From a virus: a DNA stretch of 64,000 bases. Positions within the stretch are counted from its first letter, which is position 1. Every line of letters starts with the position of its first letter. Below are positions 3,524-61,875 of the stretch, piece after piece. Below the pieces are notes generated by a model. It did not search any database, was not told where the DNA came from, and saw only the letters and a program-made list of their open reading frames with translations. A program made the translations under genes and the position numbers. The stretch covers positions 1-64,000 of IMG/VR virus record IMGVR_UViG_3300007640_000036; one strand, written 5' to 3'.

Positions 3524-3532
3524 GGAAATTAA

Positions 3533-3822: not shown

Positions 3823-3830
3823 TATAAATA
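3823..3830 (+). promoter_or_regulatory. T4-type late promoter for the second fibre gene
   Basis: A TATAAATA octamer lies in the 80-base gap before the fibre gene at 3868. The predicted start is near 3836, and a GGGAGAGAG ribosome binding site sits just before the ATG. Confidence 0.6.
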
Positions 3831-3867
3831 ATACAAGTTAGTTTGTTAAAAAAGGGAGAGAGCAACA

Positions 3868-7272: not shown

Positions 7273-7276
7273 AACC

Positions 7277-8835: not shown

Positions 8836-8837
8836 TT

Positions 8838-9311: not shown

Positions 9312-10935
9312 AGCATATCTAGGTAACCCTAACCTATATAAAGCAAATCTACAACAAAGTTACACCGAAGATCAAGTAAGAGAGATTGCAAAGTGCATGG
9401 ATGATCCTATACACTTTATAAAAACATATACTAGAATTGTAAATATTGATGAAGGTCTAGTACCTTTTAATATGTATGGTTTTCAGGAAAAAATGGTTAA
9501 GACATTCCATGAAAATCGTTTTTCTATTTGTAAACTACCAAGACAGTCAGGTAAGTCAACAACAATTATTGCATATCTATTACATCAAGTTATATTTAAC
9601 GATAATATAAATGTGGCCATACTTGCCAACAAAAGTTCTACTGCTAGAGATTTATTAGGTAGACTTCAACTTGCATATGAAAACTTACCTAAATGGTTAC
9701 AACAAGGTGTCTTAAACTGGAACAAAGGTTCACTTGAATTAGAAAACGGTTCAAAGATACTTGCAGCTGCAACATCAAGTTCCGCTATTCGAGGTGGTTC
9801 ATTTAATATCATATTCCTTGATGAGTTTGCTTTCATACCTAATAACATATCTGAGCAATTTTTTAGTTCAGTATATCCTACAATTTCTTCTGGTAAATCT
9901 TCTAAAGTTATGATTGTATCTACACCACATGGTATGAATATGTTTTATAAACTGTGGAATGACGCAATACATGGAAGAAACGATTATAAACCTATTGAAG
10001 TACATTGGTCAGAGGTACCTGGTAGAGATGATAAGTGGAAAGAAGAAACAATTAGAAACACAAGTGAGGCACAATTTGCTACAGAGTTTGAGTGTGAGTT
10101 TGTAGGTTCAGTAGATACATTAATCAATCCATCTAAATTACGAAACTTATCACACAATACACCACTAGTATCTAACGAAGGTTTAGATATGTACGAAAGA
10201 GCAGAAAAAGGTAAAGATTATGTTATGACAGTTGACGTAGCACGTGGTACTGTAAGAGATTATTCTGCCTTTACTGTATTTGATGTAACACAAATGCCAT
10301 ATAAGTTGGTTGCAAAATTTAGAGATAACGAAATTAAACCTATATTATTTCCTCATACTATTGAGAAAGTCGCAAGAGCATATAACAATGCTCATATATG
10401 TGTTGAAGTAAATGATCTAGGACATCAAATAGCAGACGCTTTACAGTTTGAATTAGAATACACAAACTTATTAATGTGTATGATGAAAGGTAGAGCAGGT
10501 CAGATATTAGGTGGTGGTTTCAGTAAAAGAGGTACGCAATTAGGTGTACGTATGACCAAACAAGTAAAACGTATAGGTTGTTCTAACTTAAAATCATTGT
10601 TAGAAGGCGACAAGATATTGATAAATGATTTTCATACAATACAAGAGTTATCAACATTTGTAAGAAGAGGATCAGGTTGGCAAGCAGAGGAAGGTTCTAA
10701 TGACGATTTAGTTATGTGTTGCGTTATATTTGCATGGATAACAAATCAAAGATATTTCAAAGAAATGACAGACCAAGATGTACGTGCTAGAATGTATGAA
10801 GAACAACAAAACGCAATAGAACAAGATATGGCACCCTTTGGTTTCATGGACAATGGTATGGAAGAAGAATATCAACAAGATGATAGTGGCGAAGTATGGC
10901 GGCCAGTTACCGTACGAAAAGGTGAGATATTATAA
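9304..10935 (+). CDS. gp17: Terminase large subunit gp17 (packaging ATPase/nuclease)
   Basis: A 543-residue packaging motor (T4 gp17 is 610). The N-terminal ATPase has an atypical Walker A at residues 80-86 (RQSGKST) and a Walker B ending in D173-E174 (IIFLDEFAF). The C-terminal RNase H-like nuclease has its acidic residues at D311 (MTVDVARG), E368/D371 (VEVNDLG) and D467/D468 (NDDLVM). It pumps DNA through the gp20 portal and cuts concatemers at headful length. It is preceded by gp16 and followed by gp18 after a gap with its own late promoter. All catalytic positions appear intact. Confidence 0.96.
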   Translation: MTEAYLGNPNLYKANLQQSYTEDQVREIAKCMDDPIHFIKTYTRIVNIDEGLVPFNMYGFQEKMVKTFHENRFSICKLPRQSGKSTTIIAYLLHQVIFNDNINVAILANKSSTARDLLGRLQLAYENLPKWLQQGVLNWNKGSLELENGSKILAAATSSSAIRGGSFNIIFLDEFAFIPNNISEQFFSSVYPTISSGKSSKVMIVSTPHGMNMFYKLWNDAIHGRNDYKPIEVHWSEVPGRDDKWKEETIRNTSEAQFATEFECEFVGSVDTLINPSKLRNLSHNTPLVSNEGLDMYERAEKGKDYVMTVDVARGTVRDYSAFTVFDVTQMPYKLVAKFRDNEIKPILFPHTIEKVARAYNNAHICVEVNDLGHQIADALQFELEYTNLLMCMMKGRAGQILGGGFSKRGTQLGVRMTKQVKRIGCSNLKSLLEGDKILINDFHTIQELSTFVRRGSGWQAEEGSNDDLVMCCVIFAWITNQRYFKEMTDQDVRARMYEEQQNAIEQDMAPFGFMDNGMEEEYQQDDSGEVWRPVTVRKGEIL

Positions 10936-16414: not shown

Positions 16415-17059
16415 ATGAAGTTAATTACCGAAGAAATATCAAACGCAGAATATATCGTAGAAGAAAAAAATGGTAAAAGAAATTATTCCATTAAAGGTAT
16501 ATTCATGCAATCAGACGTTAAGAATAGGAATGGAAGAATCTATCCTAAAGAAATCTTACAAAAAGAAGTTGTAAGATACAATAGAGAGTTCATCAATAAA
16601 AGCAGAGCATTCGGCGAACTTGGTCATCCTGATGGCCCGACAGTAAATTTAGAAAGAGTTTCGCATATGATTAAGGCTTTGTATCCAGAAGGCGCAAATT
16701 TTATAGGTGAAGCACGAGTTTTAGATACCCCATATGGAAAAATAGTGAAAAGTTTAATTGACGAGGGTGCAAAATTAGGTGTTTCAAGTAGAGGAATGGG
16801 TACACTTGCAAATGTAGGTGGTGCCAATGTAGTTAAAGACGATTTTTACCTTGCGACCGCGGCTGATATAGTCGCAGACCCAAGTGCTCCAGACGCTTTC
16901 GTAGAAGGCATTATGGAAGGCAAAGAGTGGGTTTGGAATAATGGGATTTTGAAAGAGCAAGAAGTAAACGAATTAAAGTTACAAGTAGAAAGTAAAGAGA
17001 GAATGGCAAGAGCAGAAAAGAATGCTCAAGTATTCGAATCTTTTCTTAAAAAACTGTAA
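16415..17059 (+). CDS. gp21: Prohead core protease gp21
   Basis: A 214-residue serine protease (T4 gp21 is 212) of the herpesvirus-protease-like family. The catalytic His is H71 in GELGHPDG and the nucleophile lies in GVSSRG (S124/S125). DVKNRNGRIYPKEIL near residue 35 is another family hallmark. It is packed in the prohead core, then activated to cleave scaffold, capsid and internal proteins after (I/L)-x-E. Its presence matters for the proteins from 51 kb onward, whose N-termini fit this cleavage rule. It is followed by gp22 and gp23, as in T4. Confidence 0.95.
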   Translation: MKLITEEISNAEYIVEEKNGKRNYSIKGIFMQSDVKNRNGRIYPKEILQKEVVRYNREFINKSRAFGELGHPDGPTVNLERVSHMIKALYPEGANFIGEARVLDTPYGKIVKSLIDEGAKLGVSSRGMGTLANVGGANVVKDDFYLATAADIVADPSAPDAFVEGIMEGKEWVWNNGILKEQEVNELKLQVESKERMARAEKNAQVFESFLKKL

Positions 17060-17144: not shown

Positions 17145-18479
17145 ATGGCTGACAATACTGTGGCAGATTTGCCAACAAAAAATGCAGCTCCAGCTGAACC
17201 AGCAAAGTCGTTACAGGCAACTGTACAACAAGTGATGAATAAAGCAATCACTTCACCGACTGACGCAAAAGTAGATTTCGCACAAGGGGTTAACCACATT
17301 ACAGGTGACCCACATCAAAAAAGTGCAGGTACAGCGGACGCAATGCCTACTCTCTCTGCTGAAAAAGAGCCTAAAAAAGATATTCAGGCTACTTACGAAG
17401 CTGATGAGAAAAAGGACGAAAAAGAAAAAGAAGATATGAAAGAAGCAGAACACTCTAAAGATGATGAGAAGAAAAAAGAAGATGTGAAAGAGGGTGAAAT
17501 GCCAGCTGGTCTTAAAAAATACCTAGATAAAAAGGATGATAAAGAAGACGAGAAAAAAGAAGAAAAAGAAGACAAGAAAGACGTTAAAGAAGCTGAAGAC
17601 AAAGAAGACGTTAAAGAATCTGAGTCAAAAGAAGATGAAAAGAAAAAAGAAGAGTCTTATGATGACAAGAAAAAAGACGTTAAAGAAGCAGAAGAAAAAG
17701 AAGATGAAAAAGAAGTGAAAAAAGAAATGTCTGCTAAAGATAAAGTAAAAGACATGGATATGAAAGAAGACGTTGCTGCTCTAACTGATGGTGAAGAACT
17801 ATCGGAAGAGTTTAAACAAAAAGCTTCTACTATATTTGAAGCTGCTGTTAAAGCAAAACTTGTTGAAGAAATAGAAAATTTAGAGAGCGAATACGAAACT
17901 AAGGTTAATGAGAAAGTTGAAGAAACTAAATCAGAAATCGTAGAAAAAGTTGACGCTTACCTAAACTATGTTGTCGAGGAGTGGATGAAAGAAAACGAAT
18001 TGGCAATAGAAAAAGGTTTAAGAGCTGAGATTACTGAAGATTTTATCGGTGGTCTTAAATCTTTATTTGAATCTCACTACATCAATGTTCCACAAGAGAA
18101 GTATGATGTGATTGAGGCTCAGACTGCTGAGATAGAGAAGTTAAAAGAAGAAGTTAACCAAACTATTGAGAAAAACGTTGAGTTAAATCAGGCAATCGGT
18201 CAACACGTAAGAGCAGATATTATCAATGATGTATCATCTGATCTTGCTGAAACTGAATCTGAAAAACTTAAAGGTTTAGCAGAAAGTATTGAATACAAAG
18301 ACGCTGACAGTTTTAGAACAAGTATAGAAACATTAAAAAATTCTTACTTCCCTAAAACAAAAGCGAGTGATAACGAATCTAATGAAGTAGCAGAAAACAA
18401 TGCTGGCTCTATGAATGAGTCAATGGCTGCATATACTGCTGCAATTAGTAAATCAAAGAAAAACCCATACGTAAAGTAA
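17145..18479 (+). CDS. gp22: Prohead scaffold protein gp22
   Basis: A 444-residue major core (scaffold) protein, far longer than T4 gp22 (269). Residues about 75-205 form an extremely Lys/Glu/Asp-rich low-complexity segment. The rest is alpha-helical and coiled-coil-prone (FEAAVKAKLVEEIENLESEY; EKLKEEVNQTIEKNVELNQA). A conserved region around LNYVVEEWMKENELAIEKGL identifies the family. It assembles the prohead core under the gp23 shell and is then degraded by gp21. Position directly before gp23 supports the call. The expanded charged insert is unusual and may be prone to repeat-length change. Confidence 0.88.
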   Translation: MADNTVADLPTKNAAPAEPAKSLQATVQQVMNKAITSPTDAKVDFAQGVNHITGDPHQKSAGTADAMPTLSAEKEPKKDIQATYEADEKKDEKEKEDMKEAEHSKDDEKKKEDVKEGEMPAGLKKYLDKKDDKEDEKKEEKEDKKDVKEAEDKEDVKESESKEDEKKKEESYDDKKKDVKEAEEKEDEKEVKKEMSAKDKVKDMDMKEDVAALTDGEELSEEFKQKASTIFEAAVKAKLVEEIENLESEYETKVNEKVEETKSEIVEKVDAYLNYVVEEWMKENELAIEKGLRAEITEDFIGGLKSLFESHYINVPQEKYDVIEAQTAEIEKLKEEVNQTIEKNVELNQAIGQHVRADIINDVSSDLAETESEKLKGLAESIEYKDADSFRTSIETLKNSYFPKTKASDNESNEVAENNAGSMNESMAAYTAAISKSKKNPYVK

Positions 18480-20898: not shown

Positions 20899-22464
20899 AT
20901 GACAGTACGTGTAAGACCTAGAGATTTAAAACTTCCCGAATATATGACAAGAGGTGGTCCAGGCGACCTATCAATGCCAGGTAACGTCAACACTACAGAA
21001 TGGTGGCGACCTGAAAACATGTCAGAGCTTGGCAAAAAGAAAGCTGCTGAAAAAGGATCAATAGTAGAACAAGCAAAAAGTAAAGAAATATTTTGGTGTG
21101 GTATACCTTTTACACAATTATATAACGAAATAGATGGTAGATATCAAGCGTGTTGTTTTGCAGAACCTGATAAAGTTAGTACCATAAAAAATACTTCTTT
21201 AAAAGATTGGATGCACAAAAGTGCTTATATGAATGTATTGAGAAAAGAAATGACAACACCTATAAAGGAACAAAAAGATCCTTTAAAATGGACTAAAAAA
21301 CTTTGTACAAGATGTGTTACAGATGAAGAAAAATATGGCAGATCCAGAAGAACAAATTGTTTAAAAATTCACACAAATAATCATTGGTTCTGGGACGACA
21401 TTGAGCACATAGCAGATAGATTTAGAAAAACAGGTGAATATAAACTTGATAGAAGGGTATTAGAAATACAATTAAAGATATATGGCTCAGAGTGTAATTT
21501 AGATTGTTTTATGTGTCTTCATGCTAACTCAACTACAAGAATGAAAGTAGCAGAAAGTGGTGTATGGAACAATGAAATATGGACTGAAGAAAACGCAGGT
21601 GTTGGTATACAAGAATCAAACGAATTAAAATCAAAATATAAATTAGTAGGTAAAAAACTAAAGAAAGTATTAGAAGATAATACTCCAGGTTCTATAGAAC
21701 AAATATTAGAATTAGCACCTTACACACGTAGTATAAAAATTATAGGTGGTGAACCACTTATTATGAAAAGACAATATGAGATGTTACAGGCCTTAATAGA
21801 TAGTGGCGATTCAAAAGAAATTATTATAAAATTTCAAACAAACATGACAAAAATGGCAAGAGGTAAACATAATATGTTTAAGTATATACCCCATTTTAAA
21901 CTTGTAACTATGGTTGGTTCTGTAGATGGTGTAGGTAAAACTATTGAGTATATGAGAAGAAGAACAGATTGGCCTGAACTAGTTGACAATATAGAAAAAA
22001 TCAAAAAATATCCTAATGCAGTTGTAGATTTCAATGGTCTAGTTTCTTTTTTAAGTGTTATGAGATTTTATGAAGTTATAGATTGGTGCAAAGACAATCC
22101 TGTTATAGATCAAATCAATTGGGCTATGTTAGAAAACCCAAAACATTTTGCAGTACATAATTTACCTAAAAAAATAAAAGATGATTTAATAATAAAATAT
22201 TCAAAGTTTCCCGATATTGTAGCTGCATTAGAAAAGAAACCTGATTCAGATGTAAATATACAAGATACATTTCAATACTTGTTGCAACAAGACAGGTACT
22301 ATGTAGGCACTAAATGGGAATCACATTTGTTTGATGTATTTCCTGAACTAGAAGAATTTTACGACCCTAACTATAAGTCACCAAACGAGTTAGATAGAAG
22401 GATGCAAACGGAATTAAAAAAAGGTATTGATAAGGCATATGAAATCCCAGACTTATTAACTTAA
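20899..22464 (+). CDS. Radical SAM enzyme with N-terminal Cys-rich (SPASM-like) domain
   Basis: A 521-residue protein. The radical SAM cluster motif CxxxCxxC is C199-C203-C206 (CNLDCFMC) and the SAM-binding GGEP motif is residues 283-286 (IIGGEPLIM). The N-terminal part holds more cysteines: C67, C85-C86 (QACCF), C136-C139 (CTRC) and C154. Their spacing recalls an auxiliary Fe-S (SPASM/twitch) domain, normally C-terminal to the radical SAM barrel; here it comes first. Such enzymes usually modify peptides or small molecules. No substrate peptide is obvious next door. The C-terminal 200 residues continue the barrel and add a helical tail. Expression may be late. The family assignment is firm; the substrate is unknown. 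Confidence 0.8.
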   Translation: MTVRVRPRDLKLPEYMTRGGPGDLSMPGNVNTTEWWRPENMSELGKKKAAEKGSIVEQAKSKEIFWCGIPFTQLYNEIDGRYQACCFAEPDKVSTIKNTSLKDWMHKSAYMNVLRKEMTTPIKEQKDPLKWTKKLCTRCVTDEEKYGRSRRTNCLKIHTNNHWFWDDIEHIADRFRKTGEYKLDRRVLEIQLKIYGSECNLDCFMCLHANSTTRMKVAESGVWNNEIWTEENAGVGIQESNELKSKYKLVGKKLKKVLEDNTPGSIEQILELAPYTRSIKIIGGEPLIMKRQYEMLQALIDSGDSKEIIIKFQTNMTKMARGKHNMFKYIPHFKLVTMVGSVDGVGKTIEYMRRRTDWPELVDNIEKIKKYPNAVVDFNGLVSFLSVMRFYEVIDWCKDNPVIDQINWAMLENPKHFAVHNLPKKIKDDLIIKYSKFPDIVAALEKKPDSDVNIQDTFQYLLQQDRYYVGTKWESHLFDVFPELEEFYDPNYKSPNELDRRMQTELKKGIDKAYEIPDLLT

Positions 22465-43919: not shown

Positions 43920-45162
43920 ATACGCAGACGAAAATAGATTACCTATAATGGATCAACAGACCTTTGAAACGGTCACTAACGATATAGGTAAAGAAAAATT
44001 TAGGCTAGACCTTGCAGAATATATTGCAGAATACAGACCAACGTTTCCTCTAAAGAAGATTTCATACGAAGCAATGCGTCAGGCATTTAAGTCTTTACAA
44101 AAACAAGATGTATGGGAGTTTGTAAAACCTATAGAACTATTAGAAAAAAATGTAAAAGAAAAATATGATGATTACAAATATAATTTTAAAGATAATGGTC
44201 TAGGTATCATAGACGCACCATCTAATTTCAATGACATATCAAATTACTTTCATCAACATTTAAGATTGAATTGTGGTAGTTTTGGTTTCAAAGCACCTAT
44301 AGATGTATGGGAGCAGGGTACAGCAAAAGATATATGGCGTTGTCTAGGTCCTATATGGCGTGGTATCAATGGTATGAAACCTGTTGAAGTAGATAACAAA
44401 ATAGAATTAAGAGGTGGTAGATTAGATGATAAGAGTTACATGTCAGCGTTTAGATTAGGTACATATATTGCAACACAATTTAAACCTAATGTAGCAAAGA
44501 CAATCTATCAGATGACAAATGCTAAAAGAGTATTAGATACATCATGTGGATGGGGCGATAGACTTGCAGGTTTCTTTACTAGTGACGCTGAAGAATATAT
44601 CGGCTGTGATCCTAATCCCAATACTTACAAACAATATTTAAAACAAGTAGAAACATATAATAGTTTCTTATCTAAACCTAAAAAGGTAACTATCTATAAC
44701 TGTGGTGCTGAAGACTTACCATGGGATAAAATTGATAATATAGATTGTGCATTTACAAGTCCACCATACTTTTCTACAGAAAGGTATAACGAGGGTGGTG
44801 AAAAAGAAGAAAATCAATCATGGCATAAGTTTGATGAATATTCTAAATGGCGTGATGACTTCTATCTACCTGTTGCTCAAAAGAGTTTTGAGAGATCAAA
44901 GCATATGTTTGTAAACATTATGGATCCTAATATAAAAAACAAAAGATATTATAGTAGTGATGAACTTGTTGATAGTTTAAAAGATAACTTTGTAGGTCAG
45001 ATAGGTATGAGGATTATGCAACGACCTAAATCAGATAAACTATTTGAAAGTGACGAAGAAAAAGCAGAGTTTATGAATAGAATATATATTGAAAACGTAT
45101 GGTGTTTTTCAAAAGAAAAATTAGATTACTTTAGGCACAGTAGAAGGGCAACATTATTTTGA
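43900..45162 (+). CDS. DNA methyltransferase (TSPPY type)
   Basis: A 420-residue protein with SAM-binding motif LDTSCGWGDRLAGFF and catalytic TSPPY at residues 286-290. It shares its outline with the 359-residue protein at 30552 (helical N-terminal part, motif I, TSPPY, then a WRDxF segment), so the two are probably paralogues with different specificities. The first 200 residues may be the target recognition part. The start may be either of two adjacent ATG codons (43900 or 43903). Its stop overlaps the TTG start of the radical SAM gene. Confidence 0.8.
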   Translation: MMNYLSKYADENRLPIMDQQTFETVTNDIGKEKFRLDLAEYIAEYRPTFPLKKISYEAMRQAFKSLQKQDVWEFVKPIELLEKNVKEKYDDYKYNFKDNGLGIIDAPSNFNDISNYFHQHLRLNCGSFGFKAPIDVWEQGTAKDIWRCLGPIWRGINGMKPVEVDNKIELRGGRLDDKSYMSAFRLGTYIATQFKPNVAKTIYQMTNAKRVLDTSCGWGDRLAGFFTSDAEEYIGCDPNPNTYKQYLKQVETYNSFLSKPKKVTIYNCGAEDLPWDKIDNIDCAFTSPPYFSTERYNEGGEKEENQSWHKFDEYSKWRDDFYLPVAQKSFERSKHMFVNIMDPNIKNKRYYSSDELVDSLKDNFVGQIGMRIMQRPKSDKLFESDEEKAEFMNRIYIENVWCFSKEKLDYFRHSRRATLF

Positions 45163-45830
45163 TAGAAATAGCAGATATAAATTTAACAAACTTATGTAAC
45201 GCTAGATGTCCACAATGTCAAAGAACATCGCCACATGGTTTACATACAGCTATGAAATTACCATTAACAACTTGGTCGTTGTTAGATTTTAAAAACTATT
45301 TTCCTAAAAATACTTTAGATGATATGAAAGAATATAGTTTTTGTGGCACATATGGTGATCCTTTGATGGCAAAAGATTTAGAGTCAATTGTATATTACAT
45401 AATGGATAATTCAAATGCAAAAGTTATAATTACTACAAATGGTAGTATTCGTAAAGATGATTTCTATATAAGATTAGGAAAATATTGTGGTAGAAGATTA
45501 TCAATGGTTATAGATGTAGATGGTGTAGATGAACAAATGCACCAGAAGTATAGACGAGGTACATCATTAAAAAAATCATTATCTGCTTTAAAAGCATTAT
45601 CTACTACAAATGCTATTCCTTTATCACAAACCGTTTTGTTTAAACATAATGAAAATTATGATAGACAAATAAAAAATCTAGCACTTAAAAATGGTTCTCA
45701 CAATCATGTATCGTATCCATCAGATAGATTTGATTTCTTACATGGTGATTTAAATACATTTAATTTTACAAATGAAGATGGTGAACATGAAATATTAGAG
45801 AGGGCTGTACATGTCAAAAATTATATGTAA
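45159..45830 (+). CDS. Radical SAM core enzyme lacking its own SPASM domain
   Basis: A 223-residue radical SAM domain. The iron-sulphur motif CxxxCxxC appears as CNARCPQC near residues 13-20. CGTYGDPLMAKDLESIVYYI replaces the GGEP region, and VIITTNGS and MVIDVDGVDE follow as barrel strands. The start codon is probably TTG at 45159, because no ATG lies before the cluster motif; it overlaps the upstream stop. The protein ends early and a separate short gene supplies a SPASM-like domain. The substrate is unknown; SPASM enzymes usually modify peptides. Confidence 0.8.
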   Translation: MIEIADINLTNLCNARCPQCQRTSPHGLHTAMKLPLTTWSLLDFKNYFPKNTLDDMKEYSFCGTYGDPLMAKDLESIVYYIMDNSNAKVIITTNGSIRKDDFYIRLGKYCGRRLSMVIDVDGVDEQMHQKYRRGTSLKKSLSALKALSTTNAIPLSQTVLFKHNENYDRQIKNLALKNGSHNHVSYPSDRFDFLHGDLNTFNFTNEDGEHEILERAVHVKNYM

Positions 45831-49666: not shown

Positions 49667-50905
49667 ATGGCAATTCTAAATGGTATTAACGTAAAAGACG
49701 CTGAATTTACAGCAATGCAGGAGAAGGCTACTGCCGCTATCTGTAAGCAATCATTTCAAAATAATAAAAAATTTAATTCAGTAAAAGATATAGTTAACGA
49801 TAAAGATACCGTAAAAGAACTAAAAGAAATATTTGTTAAAGACAAAAAACAATTATTTCATTACAAGATACCCTTTTCACAAAAGATAGAAAAAAACTGG
49901 TTTGAAACTTTTGTTAAACAAAACGAAAGAATATTAAGAGAGTTTTCTAACGCAAAATTTACCGTCTTTGATAGAGATGATAAAGATGGTTTTATGATGT
50001 GGTTTATGAAAACGATTAGAGATTATTTTAGCATATCAAATAAAGACTCATACAATCCTGCTGATATATGGTTGATTGATAAAAAAGAAGTCAATAGACA
50101 AATCATATTAAAAGAAATAGAAGGACCTAAAGGCACACAAACTATAGAAGAACTTAATCAGATAATGAGAAAGTTATACAAAGAAAGAAAAGTTATAGGT
50201 CTTTCTTTAAAATTAATTTCAGGCAATCAAGCAAAGTACCAAGAAGTTAATTTAGATGATAAGTTTTTTAAAGCAGTAGAAAATAAAAAAGGTGAGTTTG
50301 ATTACAAACTTTTAAAAGTTAAGTTTGATCTATCTACATATGGTATAAAAAAGAATGCTGGTTTTACAACACAAGATTCTGTATTGACTTTAGGTATTAG
50401 AGGTACAGAAATAGCAAAGTTTCAAGTTAAAGGCAATACAACATCAAGGTTATCTAATTTAAAAATAGAAGGTACGGGTAAAGGTGAGGCTGCAAGATTA
50501 GGTAAGGCACCTTTAGAACTAGTTAGAAAATTAACTGCTGGCAAACCATACAGATCACAATTTTTAAATGACGCAAAAAAAGAACCACAAGATATAAGTG
50601 ACTTTAATAAACAAGCAAAGATGTGGCAAGTTATGTACGAAGAATTTGTTACAAATATGAAACAAAAAGGCATACCTATAGAAACAAAGATCATGCCTAA
50701 AGATTTTACAAAGAATATGAGAATAGCATTTGAGGGTAGAACACCTTGGATTGCTAATAACAAACTACTACAATTACGATTCCTACACATGGTTTCAAAG
50801 TTTAAAAAAGATGAGATCCATGAGTATATGACAGATTTAATCTTCTTATGCCAGAAGATAGGACGTAGTGTATTTCCTTTCGGGCCGTTCGGCAAACTTT
50901 ATTAG
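49667..50905 (+). CDS. Hypothetical protein, 412 residues
   Basis: A soluble protein of mixed alpha/beta composition, Lys-rich, without recognisable motifs. Segments such as NPADIWLIDKKEVNRQIILKE, IGLSLKLISGNQAKYQEVNL and ELVRKLTAGKPYRSQFLNDA suggest a globular protein; NPADIW and SLK in this order are also seen in some nuclease- or restriction-like phage proteins, but this is weak. A late-like octamer sits at its start. The next gene has its own promoter. Function unknown. Confidence 0.6.
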   Translation: MAILNGINVKDAEFTAMQEKATAAICKQSFQNNKKFNSVKDIVNDKDTVKELKEIFVKDKKQLFHYKIPFSQKIEKNWFETFVKQNERILREFSNAKFTVFDRDDKDGFMMWFMKTIRDYFSISNKDSYNPADIWLIDKKEVNRQIILKEIEGPKGTQTIEELNQIMRKLYKERKVIGLSLKLISGNQAKYQEVNLDDKFFKAVENKKGEFDYKLLKVKFDLSTYGIKKNAGFTTQDSVLTLGIRGTEIAKFQVKGNTTSRLSNLKIEGTGKGEAARLGKAPLELVRKLTAGKPYRSQFLNDAKKEPQDISDFNKQAKMWQVMYEEFVTNMKQKGIPIETKIMPKDFTKNMRIAFEGRTPWIANNKLLQLRFLHMVSKFKKDEIHEYMTDLIFLCQKIGRSVFPFGPFGKLY

Positions 50906-51005: not shown

Positions 51006-52229
51006 ATGTATAGTTTTAAACAATATCTTAATGAGGCAAAAAATACTCATTTAGAACATTTAGAAGACGAAATTATTAATAACGGTTACCAAGGTGGCCT
51101 TAACGCAGTAGAATTTCTTAAATCATTAAGAAATATGCTAGTAGGTTCATCACGTAGAAAATTAAACGTATCCGTTAAATGGGATGGTGCACCAGCAGTA
51201 TTCTGTGGTATCAATCCTGAAAACGGCAAATTCTTTGTTGGATCAAAATCAGTATTCAACGTAACTCCTAAAATCAATTACACACAAGCAGATATAAGAA
51301 GAAATCACTCTGGTGGTTTAGTAGATAAATTATCAATCTGTTTAAAAGAATTACCTAAACTTGGTATACGAGGTGTTGTACAAGGTGACTTGTTATTTAC
51401 ATCAGGAGATATTAAGTCGGTATCTATACGAGGTGAAGATGCTATCGCATTTACACCAAACACTATAACATATGCTGTTCCAGAAAATACTGACCTTGCT
51501 AAAAGAATTAAAAGAGCTAAGTTAGGCATTATCTTTCACACTACTTACAATGGCCGAAAGATGTCTAACCTAAAAGCAAGCTTTGGCGTCAATGTAAATC
51601 GTTTTACAAAGACGCCAGCAGTATTCTTTGATGACGCAAGTTACAAAGACTCATCTGGTGTTGCTACATTTACAACTGCTGAAAGTGATCAGTACGATAA
51701 TATGTTAAGAATGGCAATGGGATCAATTTCAAAAGGTAAAGTTATTTTAGATTTGTTAAAAAGACAAACAAATATGTTATCAGTTGGTGCAAGATTAAAG
51801 ATTTTCTTCAATACAAAAATAAGAGAAGGTCAAACTATTAGTAATGTAAAAGGATTACAATCAGATTTTAGAAAGTACTATGCTTCAGTTTTAGATGATG
51901 AGATGTCAAGTAAAAAAACAGAAGCTGCAAAAAGTAAATACAAAACAATAAGAGATGATGGTTTAAAATTTATTGATAGATATGATAATGAAATATATTT
52001 TGCAATTGCAAGTTATGTAACTTTACAAAAAGTTAAAAATTATCTTGTAAGTAAAATGAATCAAATTAAATCAATAGGAACTTTTTTACAAAAAGGTAAT
52101 GGATTTGAAGTAACAAATCCAGAAGGTTATGTTGCTGTAGATAGAATGGGCAACGCCGTTAAATTAGTAGATAGATTAGAGTTTAGTACAGCAAACTTTA
52201 CATTAGCAAAGAATTGGATTAAAGGATAA
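51006..52229 (+). CDS. Ligase-like nucleotidyltransferase candidate with capsid-targeting-like start
   Basis: A 407-residue protein. Residues 58-61 are KWDG (VSVKWDGAPAVFCG), matching the lysine motif I (KxDG) of DNA/RNA ligases and capping enzymes. VVQGDLLF (about 124-131) could be motif III, and EGYVAVDRMGNAVKLV (E373-G374, K386) fits motifs IV and V. The N-terminal ten residues (MYSFKQYLNE) end in L-N-E followed by A, fitting the capsid-targeting/gp21 cleavage pattern. A family of such unknowns is common in marine T4-like phages (I believe DUF6267). Ligase activity is inference. Confidence 0.65.
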   Translation: MYSFKQYLNEAKNTHLEHLEDEIINNGYQGGLNAVEFLKSLRNMLVGSSRRKLNVSVKWDGAPAVFCGINPENGKFFVGSKSVFNVTPKINYTQADIRRNHSGGLVDKLSICLKELPKLGIRGVVQGDLLFTSGDIKSVSIRGEDAIAFTPNTITYAVPENTDLAKRIKRAKLGIIFHTTYNGRKMSNLKASFGVNVNRFTKTPAVFFDDASYKDSSGVATFTTAESDQYDNMLRMAMGSISKGKVILDLLKRQTNMLSVGARLKIFFNTKIREGQTISNVKGLQSDFRKYYASVLDDEMSSKKTEAAKSKYKTIRDDGLKFIDRYDNEIYFAIASYVTLQKVKNYLVSKMNQIKSIGTFLQKGNGFEVTNPEGYVAVDRMGNAVKLVDRLEFSTANFTLAKNWIKG

Positions 52230-53584
52230 TGGCAAATTTTAGAAAAGACACACAAGAATTTGGACCTAGAGGCCACGATAAAACGGTCTTTGAAGTACCA
52301 ATGATAGCAACAAATGACGGTAATGTTGTAACACAAACAAATCCATTTCCTGTTACAATATCAAGTATCAGTCAATCAAGCTCAGCAGAAACTAATACAG
52401 ACGCTTTTGGTAGACAAAGAATATCATCACCACTAACACTATTTGATTCCTCACATAGATTTTCTGATAATGATTTATGGAATGAAGATATTACAGGTGA
52501 CGCTTCATCAACCTTTCAAATAAATGAGGGTCTAGTAGATTTAACAGTTGGCGATAATGCTAATGATGAAATTATTAGAGAAACAAAAAAAGTAATGACT
52601 TATCAACCTGGTAAATCATTGTTAATTTTAAATTCTTTTGTATTTAATGCTGCTAAAACTGGATTAAGACAAAGAATAGGATATTTTGGAACAGACAATG
52701 GTATCTATTTAGAACAAGATGGTACAGATGTTTATATAGTAGAAAGAAGTAAAGTATCAGGTTCAGTTGTAGAAAGTAAAATTGCTCAAGCAGATTGGAA
52801 TGTAGATAAATTAGATGGCACAGGTACAACAGGCTATACTTTAGATTTAACAAAAGCACAAATTCAATATATAGATTTAGAATGGTTAGGTATAGGAACC
52901 GTAAGAGTAGGTTTTGTTATTAATGGTAGATTTGTAGTTGCTCACGCTTTTCATCACGCAAATTTAGTAACAGGAACATATATTACTACAGCTTCTTTAC
53001 CTTTAAGAATAGAAATTAAACAACAGACAGAATTGGGTGACAGCACCACAGCAACACTAAAACAAGTTTGTTCTAGTGTTATGAGTGAAGGTGGTTATCA
53101 ATTAAGAGGTTTACAACAAGCAGTTGGTACAGTAATTACTTCTCCTTATGAATTAACTACTGCTGGTACTTTTTATCCTGTTGTTTCTATACGATTAAAG
53201 TCAACAAGATTAGACGCAGCTGCTATTCTTACTGCTTTATCTATTTTAGGAACAGGAAATGGTATTTTTTATAATTGGCAAGTCGCAGCTGGAGGAACAG
53301 TTACAACAAGTTGGACTTCAGCTGGCACTAATTCATCTGTTGAATATTCAATTTCAGGAACAGCTTATACACTAGGTACAGGTAGAATATTAGCTAGTGG
53401 TTTTATGGCTTCTAATAATCAATCTAGTGCAGCTACTAATATTCTTAAAGAAGCGTTATTTAAATTTCAATTAGAAAGAAATACATTTACGGGTGTAGCA
53501 GAACCTATAACTCTTTTAATGTCTAGTGGTACTGATACGCAAGATGTGTATGCTTCTATGGATTGGGAAGAAATTAGTAGATAA
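52229..53584 (+). CDS. Virion-type structural protein (unknown)
   Basis: A 451-residue protein with a beta-rich pattern (TVRVGFVINGRFVVAHAFHH, PLRIEIKQQTELGDSTTATL). The N-terminus includes FGRQRISSPLTLFDSSHRF. The style is that of large fibre- or capsid-surface proteins of marine phages. It starts one base within the preceding stop (TAATG) and ends the same way into the kinase gene, so it belongs to the operon of the capsid-targeted-type proteins although it lacks that leader. Exact structural role unknown. Confidence 0.6.
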   Translation: MANFRKDTQEFGPRGHDKTVFEVPMIATNDGNVVTQTNPFPVTISSISQSSSAETNTDAFGRQRISSPLTLFDSSHRFSDNDLWNEDITGDASSTFQINEGLVDLTVGDNANDEIIRETKKVMTYQPGKSLLILNSFVFNAAKTGLRQRIGYFGTDNGIYLEQDGTDVYIVERSKVSGSVVESKIAQADWNVDKLDGTGTTGYTLDLTKAQIQYIDLEWLGIGTVRVGFVINGRFVVAHAFHHANLVTGTYITTASLPLRIEIKQQTELGDSTTATLKQVCSSVMSEGGYQLRGLQQAVGTVITSPYELTTAGTFYPVVSIRLKSTRLDAAAILTALSILGTGNGIFYNWQVAAGGTVTTSWTSAGTNSSVEYSISGTAYTLGTGRILASGFMASNNQSSAATNILKEALFKFQLERNTFTGVAEPITLLMSSGTDTQDVYASMDWEEISR

Positions 53585-54171
53585 TGAAAAGTTTTAGAGA
53601 TTTTATATTTGAACAATTAGGTAGAATGAGAATTATTATGTTAGGTGGACCTGGTTCAGGTAAATCAACCTATACAGAATACTTAATTAAACACTTTGAT
53701 ATTACACATATCTATCCAGGCGGTATGTTAAGAAAAGAAATTGAAAAAGGTTCAGAAATAGGACAGATTGCAAAAGATATAGTATCAAAAGGTGAGTTTG
53801 TTCCTAATCAAATAGTATTAGATTTAATTAGTAAAAAAGTTGAAGAAAGTCCTAAAGGTTATGTACTTGATGGATGGCCAAGATATATGCAACAAGTTGA
53901 AGATATGGAAAAAGCAGAAATAGGTTATGACTATGCAGTATTTTTAGATGTAAGTACCGAAGAAGTAATGAGAAGATTACTTGCAAGAGGTAGAGCAGAT
54001 GATACGAAAGAGATTATAGGTAATAGAATAGAATTATATAAAAAAGAAACAGGTCCTGTAATAGAATATTTAAGAAAGAAACCAGGATTTTTAGAAATAA
54101 AAGCAGAGGGTGGTACACCTGAAGATACTGCTAACGAAATTATAAGAAGAATAGAAAATGAAAGTAAATAG
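53584..54171 (+). CDS. Adenylate kinase-like enzyme with N-terminal leader
   Basis: A 195-residue kinase. The P-loop is GGPGSGKS (residues 21-28), the AMP-binding part is GGMLRKEIEKG, the DGWPR motif is residues 96-100, and a LID-side RGRADDT follows. Bacterial adenylate kinases begin with MRIILLGAPG; here the equivalent MRIIMLGGPG starts at residue 15, so the first 14 residues are an extra leader. The leader reads MKSFRDFIFE followed by Q, fitting capsid targeting and gp21 (I-x-E) cleavage. Trimming would leave an almost standard adenylate kinase, perhaps active in the newly infected cell. Confidence 0.85.
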   Translation: MKSFRDFIFEQLGRMRIIMLGGPGSGKSTYTEYLIKHFDITHIYPGGMLRKEIEKGSEIGQIAKDIVSKGEFVPNQIVLDLISKKVEESPKGYVLDGWPRYMQQVEDMEKAEIGYDYAVFLDVSTEEVMRRLLARGRADDTKEIIGNRIELYKKETGPVIEYLRKKPGFLEIKAEGGTPEDTANEIIRRIENESK

Positions 54172-54847
54172 TTTTATACAACATTTAGCAGAGGGTGTTT
54201 ACGACCCAGGAATATTTAAAGCATTTTTTCTTGCTGGTGGTCCTGGTTCAGGTAAAACATTTGTTACTCAAAGTACATTTTCAGGTACAGGATTAAAAGT
54301 TGTAAATTCTGATACATCATTTGAAAGAAATTTAAAACAAGCAAACTTATCTTTAAGTATGCCAGATGAAGAAACATATTTTAGAAACATTTTACGAAAT
54401 GCAGCCAAAAGAACTGCTATCTCACAGTTAAATAAATATGTAGAAGGAAGACTTGGTTTAGTAGTTGATAGCACAGGAAGAGATTATGATATGATTGCCA
54501 GACAACACAGTATGCTAAAGCAAATGGGTTATGATTGTTATATGGTATTTGTAAATACAACGTTAGATGTAGCGTTAGCAAGAAACGCTAGACGTGAAAG
54601 AACTATTCCTGAATATATTACAAAGTCAAGTTGGGAAGGTGTGCAAAATAACATTGGTAAATTTCAAAGACTATTTGGTTTAAATAATTTTTTAGTTGTA
54701 GATAACAATAAGTCTGATTTAGAACTTGTTACACTCACAATGAATAGAGTTGGTAAAATGGTAAGAAGATTTATGAGAACACCTGTACAAAATTATATTG
54801 CAAAACAATGGATGAAAAAAGAATTAGAGGCACGTAAAAGAATATGA
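54158..54847 (+). CDS. P-loop kinase (zeta-toxin/AAA-like) with capsid-targeting-like start
   Basis: A 229-residue protein with P-loop GGPGSGKT (K33), and acidic/hydrophobic strands VVDSTGRDYDMIARQ and YDCYMVFVNTTLDVALARN, typical of zeta-toxin-like or polynucleotide-kinase-like phosphotransferases. The start MKVNSFIQHLAE followed by G fits the (I/L)-x-E cleavage rule. Target unknown: a nucleotide, RNA or protein. It overlaps both neighbours by 4 or more bases in the same operon. Confidence 0.7.
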   Translation: MKVNSFIQHLAEGVYDPGIFKAFFLAGGPGSGKTFVTQSTFSGTGLKVVNSDTSFERNLKQANLSLSMPDEETYFRNILRNAAKRTAISQLNKYVEGRLGLVVDSTGRDYDMIARQHSMLKQMGYDCYMVFVNTTLDVALARNARRERTIPEYITKSSWEGVQNNIGKFQRLFGLNNFLVVDNNKSDLELVTLTMNRVGKMVRRFMRTPVQNYIAKQWMKKELEARKRI

Positions 54848-57633
54848 GATTTAAAGATTTTTTAAAAGAGTCTATAATTGACATACCAAGACAAACGTAT
54901 GCAAAAGGTGTATTTGATAAAGCAGATACTCCTAATCCAGTATTAAAACCATCAGTAAAAAAATTAGTATTAGATGGTATAAAGACATTTGAGAAATTTG
55001 GTAAAGTAGTTAAGTATACCTTAATTGGTTCAATACTTACAAAACAATATAGAGCTGATGCAGACCTTGACATTAATATCTTATTTAATATACCTGGTTC
55101 AAAAGAAGAACAAGAAAAGGTACATGATGAGATTAGAGAATATCAAGGACAGATAAATGGTAAAAATATACCAGGCACACAGCATCCTATCAACTACTTT
55201 TCCATCATAGATCCTGTAACATTTAATAAGGCAAGGGACATGGCTGATGGTACTTTTGATATCGACTCTAACAAGTGGATCAAAAAACCAGAACCTGGCA
55301 CCTTTGAACCTGAAAAATACGTTACGGATTTTCAGAAGCGTGTTTCTGAAATAGATGTTGTTAAAGGTGAACTTATACGAGATATGATTGATTATGAGGA
55401 ACTAAAAGACTTAACAGGTAACGACATAAAAAACTTGTCAAGTTTAGTTTCTAAAAAGTTAGACGAAATTAAATCTTCTATTAACACTCTAATTGATATT
55501 GGTGACAAAACTATTGCAGACCGAAAGGATGCTTTTAGTACAGATATGTCACCAGACGAAATCAGAAAGTTTGGTGTAAAGAACCGACTTCCCAAAAATG
55601 TGATTTATAAAATGTTAGAAAAGTATCATTATCTCAAATTTTTCAAAAAGTTGAAAGAGATTATGGAAGACGGTAAAATATCACCAGACGAACTGAAATC
55701 ATTATCAAAAATAAAAGAGGCCAAGGGTAGATCAATTGCATTTACCTTTGGCCGATTTAATCCACCTACAATAGGACACGAAAAACTTATTAACAAAGTG
55801 GCACAACAAAGAACAGATGATTACAGAATTTATTTAAGTAAATCTGAAGACACATCTAAAAACCCATTGAATGCTAGAGTTAAGTTAGCAACAATGAAAC
55901 AAATGTTTCCTAGACATAGCAGAAACATACTACTTAATCCATCAAACATGATATTGGATATTGTAACTGATTTACATAAAAGAGGTTACTCAAACATAAC
56001 GATGGTTGCAGGTAGTGATAGAGTAAGAGAATTTGATACTATCTTAAAAAAATATAACGGCGTTAAGAGCCGTCATGGTCTATATGACTTTGATAGTATA
56101 TCTGTAGCTTCAGCAGGAGAAAGAGATCCTGACGCTGAAGGTGCTACGGGAATGAGTGCTAGTAAAATGAGAGCGGCTGCAAAATCAAAAGACTTTGCAA
56201 GTTTCAAAAAAGGACTGCCGTCTGGTTTTGCTAACTCAAAAAATGCACAAGACTTATTTAGAAATGTAAGAAAAGGAATGATGTTAGCGGCTTCGTTTGA
56301 CGCTGATAGTGCATTTAGATTTAAACCATTTATAACTGCCTCAACAAAAGAGGAGTTAGATAAAATGACATTAAGGGACAAATATATTTCAGAGCATTTA
56401 TATGATGTAGGAGATATAGTTGACGATATGGAGAATAATGTAACTGGTGTCATTGTAAGAAGAGGAACAAACTATGTTACCTTGGAAGACGAGGAGATGA
56501 GCCTACACAAATGTTGGTTATATAATATTATGGAAACTCCTGTCTATTCAATTAAGTTGGAGAAACGATCAATGAACTTAAAAGAGAAAAGAAAATTAGC
56601 GTATGATAAAGAAACAGATCAACCTAAAAAATACGTTGCAGGATTATCAGACAAAGAGAAAAAGGCACATGATAGACACCTAGAAAAACAAGGTAAAAAA
56701 TCAGATAGTGACAAGTCTGCTTATAAACAATCACCTGCTGACAAAGTAGCAAAAACAAAACCTAGTAAACATACAAAACGTTTCAAACAAATGTATGGAG
56801 AATTGAAGACAAAATCAGAAAAAGAACCTCAACATAGAGGTAATGAATTTAATACAGATGGTATACCAGAAGCCTATGAAATAGGACATGATTGGGCAAA
56901 ATATACATCTTCAATAACACCAGGCGAAAAACACTACAATCCTAAGTATCAAGGCGGTTCTTATAGTCCAAGTAAACATAGTGATAATTTAATTAATGTT
57001 AACGCAAGTAAGGATATAAGCATGACAGATAATAAAAAAGTTGAGCTAAAAGATATAGAAGAATGGGCAAGTAAAGAAGAAACTATTAATAAATATAAGG
57101 AAAGATATGGGGAAGAGTGGCAATCTAAAATTGAAGAAACATACAATAAAATGTTCAATAAAGTGATTGACACCAACACAAATATGCAAGAAGGAAGAAT
57201 GAAGGATATCGCAATAGACCTTAAATCTAAGGACGAAGGCGGATTAGATCCAGAGGAATTTCAAAGAAAGTACAACAAATCTAAAGCAGAAATGAGAAAA
57301 GATTTAGGTGCTACTGAAGGCTTTAAGTTAACGTTTAAAGACTTTATGAAAGAAGAAGCAGACGAGTGGGGAATTTTCCCATCACAAATTACAGAAGCAG
57401 AACATCAAGGTAAAAAAGTTACTTTGAACAAACCTGTTAGAGGTGGTTCTAAAAAGTTTTATGTTTACACAAAAGGACCTAACGACAACATAGTCAAAGT
57501 ATCATTTGGTGATCCTAATATGGAAATTAAAAGAGATAATCCTGCAAGAAGAAGAAGCTTCAGAGCAAGACATAACTGTGATAATCCAGGACCTAAATGG
57601 AAAGCAAGATATTGGAGTTGCAAAAAATGGTAA
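54844..57633 (+). CDS. Multidomain protein with two nucleotidyltransferase domains and putative cleavage sites
   Basis: A 929-residue protein. Residues 1-9 (MRFKDFLKE) form a capsid-targeting-like leader. Residues about 58-80 (LIGSILTKQYRADADLDINI) match the GS...DxD motif of Pol-beta-type nucleotidyltransferases. Residues 303-312 (GRFNPPTIGH) and 438-443 (SASKMR) match the HxGH and ISSTxxR-type motifs of NMN/cytidylyltransferases. A Lys-rich linker follows. A second leader-like TFKDFMKE lies at 830-837 and ITE at 849-851, before a basic Cys-containing module (RRSFRARHNCDNPGP, RYWSCKKW). gp21 could release the parts. Enzymatic substrates are unknown. Confidence 0.75.
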   Translation: MRFKDFLKESIIDIPRQTYAKGVFDKADTPNPVLKPSVKKLVLDGIKTFEKFGKVVKYTLIGSILTKQYRADADLDINILFNIPGSKEEQEKVHDEIREYQGQINGKNIPGTQHPINYFSIIDPVTFNKARDMADGTFDIDSNKWIKKPEPGTFEPEKYVTDFQKRVSEIDVVKGELIRDMIDYEELKDLTGNDIKNLSSLVSKKLDEIKSSINTLIDIGDKTIADRKDAFSTDMSPDEIRKFGVKNRLPKNVIYKMLEKYHYLKFFKKLKEIMEDGKISPDELKSLSKIKEAKGRSIAFTFGRFNPPTIGHEKLINKVAQQRTDDYRIYLSKSEDTSKNPLNARVKLATMKQMFPRHSRNILLNPSNMILDIVTDLHKRGYSNITMVAGSDRVREFDTILKKYNGVKSRHGLYDFDSISVASAGERDPDAEGATGMSASKMRAAAKSKDFASFKKGLPSGFANSKNAQDLFRNVRKGMMLAASFDADSAFRFKPFITASTKEELDKMTLRDKYISEHLYDVGDIVDDMENNVTGVIVRRGTNYVTLEDEEMSLHKCWLYNIMETPVYSIKLEKRSMNLKEKRKLAYDKETDQPKKYVAGLSDKEKKAHDRHLEKQGKKSDSDKSAYKQSPADKVAKTKPSKHTKRFKQMYGELKTKSEKEPQHRGNEFNTDGIPEAYEIGHDWAKYTSSITPGEKHYNPKYQGGSYSPSKHSDNLINVNASKDISMTDNKKVELKDIEEWASKEETINKYKERYGEEWQSKIEETYNKMFNKVIDTNTNMQEGRMKDIAIDLKSKDEGGLDPEEFQRKYNKSKAEMRKDLGATEGFKLTFKDFMKEEADEWGIFPSQITEAEHQGKKVTLNKPVRGGSKKFYVYTKGPNDNIVKVSFGDPNMEIKRDNPARRRSFRARHNCDNPGPKWKARYWSCKKW

Positions 57634-59278: not shown

Positions 59279-59773
59279 ATGACTAAACCTATCATATATT
59301 GCGATATGGATGGAGTACTTGCAGATTTTAAAACAGGTGCTCAAAAAACAACTGGTATGTCCATTAACAAATGGATGAATATACCATCTTCAAAAGAAAA
59401 ATGGGGATTGATTAAATCTAAAAAAGACTTTTGGTCAACTCTTCCTTGGATGCCTGGTGGCAAACAACTCTGGTCTTACTTATCAAAATTTGATCCACAT
59501 ATACTATCAGCATACGTAGAAGAGTCGTTTGATCCTAACTGTATTCCTGGCAAAACTGAATGGCTAAGAAGAAATGCTGGAATGTCAAATCGTTCAAAAA
59601 TCAATCTAGTACGAAGAAAAGAAAAGAAACTCTTTGCCAAAAGAGGTAATCCTGCTATCTTAATTGATGACTATGAAAAAAACATAAGAGAATTTACACA
59701 AGCAGGTGGTACTGGTATTCATCACACAAACACATCAAATACTATATCTAAACTTAAAAAACTAGGTTTTTAA
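59279..59773 (+). CDS. HAD-family phosphatase (5'(3')-deoxyribonucleotidase-like)
   Basis: A 164-residue HAD enzyme with motif I DMDGVLADF at residues 9-17, the HILSAYVEES strand in the place of motif II, a Lys/Arg-rich region (KINLVRRKEKKLF) and motif III/IV ILIDDYEKNIREF. It resembles phage and bacterial 5'(3')-nucleotidases that dephosphorylate nucleoside monophosphates. It may balance nucleotide pools during infection, together with the adenylate kinase-like enzyme upstream. The next gene follows after a late promoter. Confidence 0.85.
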   Translation: MTKPIIYCDMDGVLADFKTGAQKTTGMSINKWMNIPSSKEKWGLIKSKKDFWSTLPWMPGGKQLWSYLSKFDPHILSAYVEESFDPNCIPGKTEWLRRNAGMSNRSKINLVRRKEKKLFAKRGNPAILIDDYEKNIREFTQAGGTGIHHTNTSNTISKLKKLGF

Positions 59774-61283: not shown

Positions 61284-61447
61284 AAGAAGATAGGGATAGC
61301 TTTATAGAGGATCTTGCTGACAATACACCAAATGAAGCTCAGTTTGATAAGTTAAAAGAAGCTGAAGTACATGACGCTGAAGAAGACCTGGTAGCAGGTA
61401 AAACTTATAAGAAATTAAAAGACGAAGTAAAACGAGGAGAAAAATGA
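61280..61447 (+). CDS. Small acidic hypothetical protein
   Basis: A 55-residue frame joined to both neighbours by ATGA overlaps (61280-61283 and 61444-61447), which supports it as a real gene although it is short. It is highly charged (DRDSFIEDLADNTPNEAQF, EVHDAEEDLVAGKTYKKLK) and probably helical. The residues before the last stop include GAGGAGA, the ribosome binding site of the next gene. Function unknown. Confidence 0.55.
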   Translation: MKEDRDSFIEDLADNTPNEAQFDKLKEAEVHDAEEDLVAGKTYKKLKDEVKRGEK

Positions 61448-61875
61448 AAACATTTAAACAACACATAAAAGAAGGCGGAACTATGGGCGTTGGAACACCT
61501 CATCAATCTTCAGTAGAAGATGGATCAATGGGTGCTCACAATATACATGAACCTGCAATCTTACAAAGAGTGAATGCTTTTGTTGGATCTATTGCTGATA
61601 AAGAGTATATACAGCCTGAGGCTGCTCTATCTCAATTAGAAACTAGATTAAGAACAATTGGTGTTCAGTTAAAAGACTCAATAACAATTAATGATAAAAA
61701 AGGTAACTTTGAAAGTGCTTTAGTATTTAATGGTGGTCGTTTTGGTAAAGATACCGACGGCTCTGACATAAATGATGATGGAATTAGTCATAAAGTTGGC
61801 AAAGAGTTAAAACTAAAAGGTAGATACGAAACACTAGAGAACGGCGCTGTTAAAGTTTATGCAGAGCTTGGCTAA
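61444..61875 (+). CDS. Hypothetical protein with capsid-targeting-like start
   Basis: A 143-residue protein. The start MKTFKQHIKE followed by G resembles the T4 leader MKTYQEFIAE in length and positions (MKT-aromatic, then I-x-E). The body has a helical part (EPAILQRVNAFVGSIADKEY) and beta strands with a GGRFGKDTDGSDINDDGIS acidic loop. No enzyme motif is seen. The gp21 rule would remove the first ten residues. Confidence 0.6.
   Translation: MKTFKQHIKEGGTMGVGTPHQSSVEDGSMGAHNIHEPAILQRVNAFVGSIADKEYIQPEAALSQLETRLRTIGVQLKDSITINDKKGNFESALVFNGGRFGKDTDGSDINDDGISHKVGKELKLKGRYETLENGAVKVYAELG

Follow-up and report, generated by a model that had tools for sequence, protein, structure and literature searches.

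What is done by a 407-amino-acid phage protein for which neither Pfam nor PHROGs records a function? The protein is encoded in the window analyzed here, a stretch of 64,000 nucleotides that forms part of a 64.5-kb virus record (IMG/VR record IMGVR_UViG_3300007640_000036) and that also carries T4-type head genes. Its open reading frame is intact, without an internal stop, and its product belongs to the Pfam family DUF6267 (PF19782; E = 5e-127 in a Pfam search), in agreement with the remark of the original prediction that this family is usually labeled unknown; no NCBIfam model matches it. The PHROG 455 profile (764 positions) matches the protein with its first half and a 929-amino-acid protein encoded downstream with its second half. 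Relatives were found by tblastn in 470 of 50,697 phage records; of these, 455 carry the name Synechococcus, Cyanophage, or Prochlorococcus, and the remainder include phages of Pelagibacter, Methylophilales, Vibrio, Stenotrophomonas, and Xanthomonas; a scan of genome contigs gave 36 loci, mostly on MAG contigs. The best explanation overall, to which a probability of about 55% can be given, is that the protein is an RNA-ligase-like enzyme that is charged at K58 and packaged into the heads of leader-bearing phages.

The original prediction had pointed to KWDG at residues 58 to 61, a GDLLF strand, and EGYV followed by a lysine, in the order of the ligase motifs. These residues were located and their conservation was assessed in a long alignment (93 rows; relatives 38 to 78% identical), a short set (44 relatives of about 300 amino acids), and a named set (9 aligned proteins with identity down to 22%), as well as in a combined alignment of 84 rows, consisting of 31 long rows (every third), the 44 short forms, and the 9 named proteins, in which the window protein is counted twice. 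K58, D60, G61, D128, E373, G374, V376, and K386 are invariant in 93/93 long rows, as are their counterparts in 44/44 short and 9/9 named sequences, and all eight are found in 84/84 rows of the combined alignment; K58 and E373 are the two residues whose conservation the original prediction had singled out for checking. K81, Q126, N152, Y156, H178, T179, Y181, H15, and H18 are likewise present in all 84 combined rows, and R390 is kept in 83. Of the 40 lysines of the protein, five (K58, K81, K344, K386, and K402) show no variation across the 93 long rows, and in the short-form reference 4 of 26 lysines are invariant in 44 rows, namely K36 (K58 in the window protein), K59 (K81), K64, and K280 (K386). 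K58, K81, and K386 are thus the lysines invariant in both, and since K58 is among so few, the KxDG motif is not a chance occurrence.

Motif I reads [VTIS]-K-[WF]-D-G throughout the long alignment (93/93) and K-[WY]-D-G throughout the short set (44/44), and in the AlphaFold2 model of the long form K58 stands at the end of a strand and is followed by DG and then by another strand. QGDLLF occupies residues 126 to 131, EGYV residues 373 to 376, and K386 lies within AVKLVDR. The protein departs in two points from what the original prediction described: motif III has GD instead of GE, and motif V has K-x-V instead of K-x-K. At the motif III position, in a register that we infer, an Asp is found in every row, an invariant carboxylate that is Glu in characterized ligases. 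Motif V takes the form K-L/I-V/I in its six commonest variants (89/93 long and 40/44 short rows), and the second lysine of KxK is missing from the variants listed. The putative ligase equivalents of K81, D128, and Y156 were assigned from motif order, strands, and the ends of aligned ranges and not by residue-level superposition.

Models were predicted with AlphaFold2 for the long form, using the 93-row alignment (pLDDT 86, pTM 0.78), and for the short form, using the 44 sequences, none of which was in the first alignment (pLDDT 89, pTM 0.84). VIA-align was used to compare the long model with the best 1,000 PDB chains from Foldseek, 997 of which were aligned, and each of the best 50 entries listed was a ligase of the covalent lysine-nucleotidyltransferase superfamily, with the NHEJ-complex entries 9cq6_F and 7lsy_Y counted as ligase IV chains from the residue range; the best 50 listed for the short-form model were again all ligases. 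When the possibility of a fold unrelated to that of ligases was put to the test, the predicted fold was thus ligase-like in both models, as the original prediction had supposed. The top match of the long model was NgrRnl 6vt3 (Z 8.4, with 184 residues aligned at 3.7 Å), with TbREL1 at Z 7.8, Trl1 6n67 at 7.2, T4 Rnl2 at 7.2, T4 Rnl1 at 6.9, and the DNA ligases below the RNA ligases at 5.5 to 6.1, and the short-form model gave Z 8.8 for NgrRnl 6vt1, 8.1 for T4 Rnl1, and 6.8 for tRNA ligase 6n0t, values that were read without an unrelated-model control and that are to be set beside the tool's warning that models lacking a clear match commonly reach Z 7 to 8. The aligned range ends 13 to 14 residues past K386 or K280 and 13 residues past K326 of NgrRnl; for the long model, K386 stands 14 residues before the range end and E373 stands 27 before it, as does E312 on the NgrRnl side, a correspondence of range ends and not a residue superposition. 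E312 and K326 are taken here to be the motif IV and V residues of NgrRnl; the PDB titles name both only as mutated.

Other comparisons were less favorable. Foldseek returned no PDB chain at E < 1e-3 for either model; ligases of DNA and of RNA appear repeatedly among its matches for the long model, and tRNA ligase 6n0v (E 0.018) and DNA ligase III (E 0.027) lead the list for the short-form model, in both cases below significance. Foldseek matches to carbonic anhydrase and CorA were discarded as noise (TM ~0.1, rmsd > 18 Å). Among BFVD matches, the RNA ligase of Agrobacterium phage Atu_ph07 ranked 15th with an E value of 3e-3 and a probability of 0.95, but with a TM of 0.25 at 14 Å, and the 14 matches above it include known family members. 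The profile-profile search that had been suggested as a check failed to find a ligase: hhalign gave a probability below 1% for the family alignment against T4 Rnl2 relatives and no significant match (probability below 1%) for the 84-row alignment against 21 ligase rows, and one insignificant local alignment that paired QGDLLF with VFGEFAG of Rnl2 was given no weight. No Pfam or NCBIfam ligase family matches the protein, searching PDB sequences with the protein by itself gave 0 matches, and a search with the family profile gave 7 chains (best E 0.21), none of them a ligase. Placement of DUF6267 in PF09414 was rejected because neither the window protein (E up to 1) nor the 44 short forms (E up to 0.1) match that family, an Rnl2-type identity was rejected on the hhalign result and on the missing K-x-K of motif V, and placement in PF01068, the ATP-dependent DNA ligases, was rejected because no OB domain follows motif V.

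Given the moderate Z values, the lack of a significant Foldseek match, and the failed profile-profile comparison, the link between DUF6267 and ligases rests on fold and motifs. The fold match carries weight because the two models come from nonoverlapping sequences, because one superfamily fills both lists, and because the invariant residues follow the order of the motifs. The models indicate that DUF6267 very probably has the superfamily fold of the covalent lysine-nucleotidyltransferases, and the best reading of them is a divergent family of these enzymes that is structurally nearest to RNA ligases.

Table 1. Positions of the DUF6267 gene, its predicted functional elements, and associated genes in the window (a slash marks a predicted cleavage site)
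Feature	Positions	Strand	Basis
Prohead protease, T4 gp21 family; would cut the leader	16415..17059	+	PF03420, E = 6e-35
gp22-type scaffold	17145-18479		
DUF6267 protein, predicted RNA-ligase-like covalent nucleotidyltransferase, 407 aa	51006..52229	+	PF19782 match, AlphaFold2 model, VIA-align
Leader codons 1-10 (MYSFKQYLNE), predicted prohead-protease cut after E10 (L-N-E/A)	51006..51035	+	T4 IPII/IPIII register; L/I-x-E rule
Motif I, K58-W-D-G61, predicted nucleotide-accepting lysine	51177..51188	+	84/84; strand-KxDG-strand in model
K81, invariant; comparable to basic residues after motif I in Rnl2 (K54/R55)	51246..51248	+	84/84; equivalence inferred
Motif III equivalent, Q126-G127-D128	51381..51389	+	Q126, D128 84/84; strand 124-132
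N152-x-x-x-Y156, candidate motif IIIa strand	51459..51473	+	84/84; strand 154-159; equivalence inferred
H178-T179-x-Y181, invariant	51537..51548	+	84/84
Helical insert, residues 224-351, much reduced in short forms	51675..52058	+	Model helices; short natural forms ~300 aa
Motif IV, E373-G-Y-V376	52122..52133	+	E373, G374, V376 84/84
Motif V, K386-L-V-D-R390, single lysine and near-invariant Arg	52161..52175	+	K386 84/84, R390 83/84
Adenylate kinase-like gene, leader MKSFRDFIFE	53584..54171	+	PF00406, E = 8e-37; leader scan
P-loop kinase (AAA_33/zeta-like), shifted leader (MKVNSFIQHLAE/G)	54158..54847	+	Profile matches; leader scan
929-aa protein: shifted leader, weak Pol-beta NTase match, HIGH-type cytidylyl/NMN-adenylyltransferase-like domain	54844..57633	+	Profile matches; leader scan

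The packaging-type leader named in the original prediction was also found. The protein starts MYSFKQYLNE/A, in the same register as the MKTYQEFIAE/A of the T4 internal proteins IPII and IPIII. In T4, residues 4 and 7 matter most for targeting and residues 8 and 10 for processing, and gp21 cleaves after L/I-x-E (PMC9026906). With a start shift of -1 to +2 allowed, a leader is present in 5 of 59 window genes (DUF6267, the adenylate kinase, the P-loop kinase, the 929-amino-acid nucleotidyltransferase-like protein, and a small open reading frame at 61444) compared with 52 matches at 16,845 internal positions (p ~1e-6), and the strict form is present in 2/59 against a background of 1/16,845, the 59 genes being hand-picked open reading frames and not an annotation. 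The small open reading frame (61444-61875) starts MKTFKQHIKE/G, very like T4 internal proteins, and has no Pfam or PHROG match.

Cyanophage S-CREM2, with 219 genes, has a virion proteome of 52 proteins (PMC10665884). A first loose leader pattern, found in 6/59 window genes, had 3 of its 7 S-CREM2 carriers in the virion (p = 0.22), and a relaxed pattern had 5 of 12 (p = 0.13), neither of them significant. The strict T4-register leader had 3/3 carriers detected in the virion compared with 49/216 other proteins (p 0.013), a softer pattern 5/6 (p 0.003), and the shifted pattern 5/7 (p 0.009), values that, like the T4-register value for the window, are optimistic because these patterns were set after others had failed and their residue classes were chosen after the leaders had been seen. 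The leader-bearing virion proteins of S-CREM2 include a SAM hydrolase, a kinase, and a cytidylyltransferase. S-CREM2 gp12 (positions 7704-10313 of locus L479), annotated as Cas9, is also listed among the virion proteins in PMC10665884.

Delivery at infection, as the original prediction had it, is supported indirectly by the T4-register leader and by the enrichment of leaders among S-CREM2 virion proteins, but the DUF6267 homolog of S-CREM2, the leaderless gp87, is not among the 52 proteins of that proteome and is encoded ~65 kb from the cytidylyltransferase gene, and the passages of the literature examined report no virion containing a DUF6267 protein. An L/I/F/V-x-E leader occurs in only 56 of the 93 long rows. 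In HTVC008M the corresponding sequence is MYNDLLVE. Because of this count and of the undetected gp87, packaging is predicted for leader-bearing phages only; judged by its leader, the protein of the window phage is somewhat likely to be packaged in the head.

Taken from the predicted fold, the invariant motif residues, the leader, and the gene neighborhood, a mechanism can be proposed in which catalysis, nucleotide, RNA substrate, and packaging are all deduced. DUF6267 is probably a covalent NMP enzyme. Following the roles of the corresponding residues in known ligases, K58 would attack the alpha-phosphate of ATP or another NTP, E373 would hold a metal and K386 a phosphate, and D128 and Y156 would line the nucleotide pocket. 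The lysyl-AMP enzyme would then pass AMP to a 5'-phosphate end and either seal it or hand it on, with RNA as a tentative choice of acceptor at somewhat less than even odds. During head assembly the first ten residues would target the protein into the prohead, where a gp21-type protease would cut after E10, and the enzyme would enter the cell with the phage DNA. Its most likely task would be RNA repair, for example of tRNAs cut by host defense nucleases, beside the leader-bearing kinases and nucleotidyltransferases. Early RNA repair is the first choice, with moderate confidence, on account of the RNA-ligase-nearest fold, the adjoining kinases and nucleotidyltransferases, and the leader.

The genes around DUF6267 bear on one alternative, itself unlikely. 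Here the protein would become adenylylated (or use NAD+) and donate the nucleotide to a protein, cap, or small molecule, and its place would be in NAD+ metabolism, together with an NMN-adenylyltransferase-like partner, and not in end joining. A homolog of the 929-amino-acid gene lies downstream of DUF6267 in 76 of the 81 loci with more than 4 kb of downstream DNA, a count in which matches may involve any part of that gene, just as kinase counts may cross-match between P-loop families. In phage S-PM2 (LN828717), DUF6267 and the HIGH-type, NMN-adenylyltransferase-like domain form one 591-amino-acid protein with the HIGH signature ~30 residues past the motif V lysine. The invariant H15, H18, and H178, for which, as for H178-T179-x-Y181 as a whole, we know of no counterpart among ligase motifs, would also suit such a role. 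The substrate of the partner is itself unproven, however, and annotators label it either cytidylyltransferase or NMNAT; the Pfam matches of the DUF6267 protein include no NAD+-binding ligase domain; and in S-CREM2, whose cytidylyltransferase bears a leader and is in its virion proteome, the two genes are ~65 kb apart.

Several further observations concern this neighborhood. The S-PM2 record NC_006820 (positions 6992-8771 of locus L235) has DUF6267 and the cytidylyltransferase as two genes, and LN828717 (positions 2992-4767 of locus L429) has them as one open reading frame of 591 amino acids. A count of 224 "fused" loci was discarded because the S-PM2 query contained the end of DUF6267. The 929-amino-acid protein has a second leader-like stretch near its C terminus (LTFKDFMKE/E), as if it were a polyprotein processed by the prohead protease. 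Directly upstream of the DUF6267 gene, and adjoining it in 56 of 266 loci, is a gene for a PHROG 1462 protein (49667-50905) that has no Pfam or PDB match and whose NPADIW...GLSLK looks, from its residues, like a possible PD-(D/E)xK nuclease core. A HAD-type 5'-nucleotidase (NT5C, PHROG 2643), a phosphate-handling enzyme, is encoded near the cluster at 59279-59773, and radical-SAM-type C-x3-C-x2-C clusters (CNLDCFMC and CNARCPQC) occur at 20899-22464 and 45159-45830, one of these open reading frames lying among head and tail genes.

A second alternative, also improbable, is that DUF6267 serves marine T4-like phages as their DNA ligase in place of a missing gp30 and seals the nicks of replication or recombination. 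A search for ligase genes covered 17 DUF6267 records, a set outside which S-CREM2 and S-CRM01 lie, and 13 of these, including a 165.7-kb record with an identical copy of the window protein, had no match to PF01068, PF01653, PF09414, or PF09511, as such a replacement would lead one to expect, although this absence counts for little because the records may be fragments and the absence is largely that of one lineage. The other 4 records carry an ATP-dependent DNA ligase, and two of these also carry both Rnl1- and Rnl2-type ligases, which would make RNA sealing by DUF6267 redundant there; DUF6267 is therefore neither a universal gp30 replacement nor limited to phages free of RNA ligases. Of the 11 named phages viewed, 7 have the gene close to uvsX and gp41 in the replication block, but it is placed elsewhere in DLP6, S-SSM7, XaC1, and S-CREM2. 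Moreover, the protein ends 21 residues after K386 and so has no OB or helical C-terminal domain past motif V, its nearest structures are RNA ligases, and a virion leader would be unexpected on a replication enzyme. S-CREM2 gp190 (positions 930-1433 of locus L482) is annotated as a "DNA ligase" but has 167 amino acids, and the label is probably wrong. The remaining alternative, that the ligase-derived fold belongs to a noncatalytic nucleotide-binding or virion assembly protein, fits the moderate Z values, the loss from motif V of its second lysine, and the change from Glu to Asp in motif III, but it is very unlikely because the Lys, Asp, and Gly of motif I, the Glu of motif IV, and the Lys of motif V are invariant in all rows, and a dead enzyme is not expected where catalytic-motif residues never vary.

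Assignment of DUF6267 as an RNA-ligase-like nucleotidyltransferase would give the family a catalytic lysine open to mutation and would make it testable in one step, by labeling with ATP, GTP, or NAD+. If the enzyme is packaged, marine phages would arrive already equipped with an enzyme for nucleic acid or NAD+ repair instead of awaiting its expression, and the family would bear on how these phages meet host nuclease defenses; the likely head packaging of DUF6267 in leader-bearing phages appears to be new. Phages are described as using RNA ligases together with end-processing enzymes to mend cleaved tRNAs, and NadV, NadM, and NadR to restore NAD+ (PMC9503650). A broader and rather doubtful proposal is that marine T4-like phages inject a kit for RNA repair or NAD+ restoration, made up of KxDG, HIGH-type, and possibly Pol-beta-type nucleotidyltransferases and P-loop kinases that travel in the head, each under a cleavable capsid leader, with a new ligase family free of accessory domains as the enzyme that does the joining. 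No publication was found under DUF6267, PF19782, PHROG 455, or T4-GC71 in a search outside which most subscription papers and preprints lay, so that the assignment is not thereby shown to be unpublished.

Among known systems, the nucleotidyltransferase domain of NgrRnl (5cot, 6vt1, and 6vt3) is the best structural match of both models. It has the lysine motif and motifs IV and V in the same order, with a spacing from motif IV to V of 14 compared with 13 in the DUF6267 protein, at ~10% identity. DUF6267 differs from it in the Asp of motif III, the helical insert of the long forms, and the invariant histidines, as well as in being without the N-terminal OB domain that NgrRnl presumably has. The T4 RNA ligases Rnl2 (gp24.1, PF09414) and Rnl1 (PF09511), with Z 6.3 to 8.1 on the nucleotidyltransferase core, share K-x-D/H-G, EGxV, and the motif V lysine with DUF6267. 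In Rnl2 relatives K54 and R55 are invariant and the motif III Glu is E99; K225 and K227 are also invariant, whereas the DUF6267 protein has K-x-V. Unlike both T4 enzymes, the DUF6267 protein of the window has no C-terminal domain and carries a capsid leader. The adenylyltransferase domain of tRNA ligase (Trl1 6n67; 6n0v) matches the models with Z 6.4 to 7.2; in Trl1 this domain is, as we take it, fused to kinase and phosphodiesterase domains, whereas the kinases beside DUF6267 are separate genes.

The T4-GC190 cytidylyltransferase/NMNAT-like virion protein, a HIGH-type enzyme whose domain is unrelated to DUF6267, adjoins DUF6267 in several cyanophages and has a leader in S-SM1, Syn9, and S-RIM8, like the DUF6267 protein of the window. 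In S-SM1 it starts MKKFSAFLNE/A, its gene directly follows and overlaps the DUF6267 gene, and the protein was detected in virions (PMC3037559); NMNAT-like proteins are also reported in several cyanophage virions, with the authors noting possible carry-over (PMC9602691). With the leaders of T4 IPII and IPIII, that of the DUF6267 protein encoded here has in common the aromatic residues 4 and 7, the L/I at 8, the E at 10, and the Ala after the cut, and the window encodes a gp21-type protease; the cargo differs in being a predicted nucleotidyltransferase, and its packaging is here a prediction. Compared with all of these systems, DUF6267 would be an atypical branch of covalent nucleotidyltransferases without accessory domains, an assignment that appears to be new.
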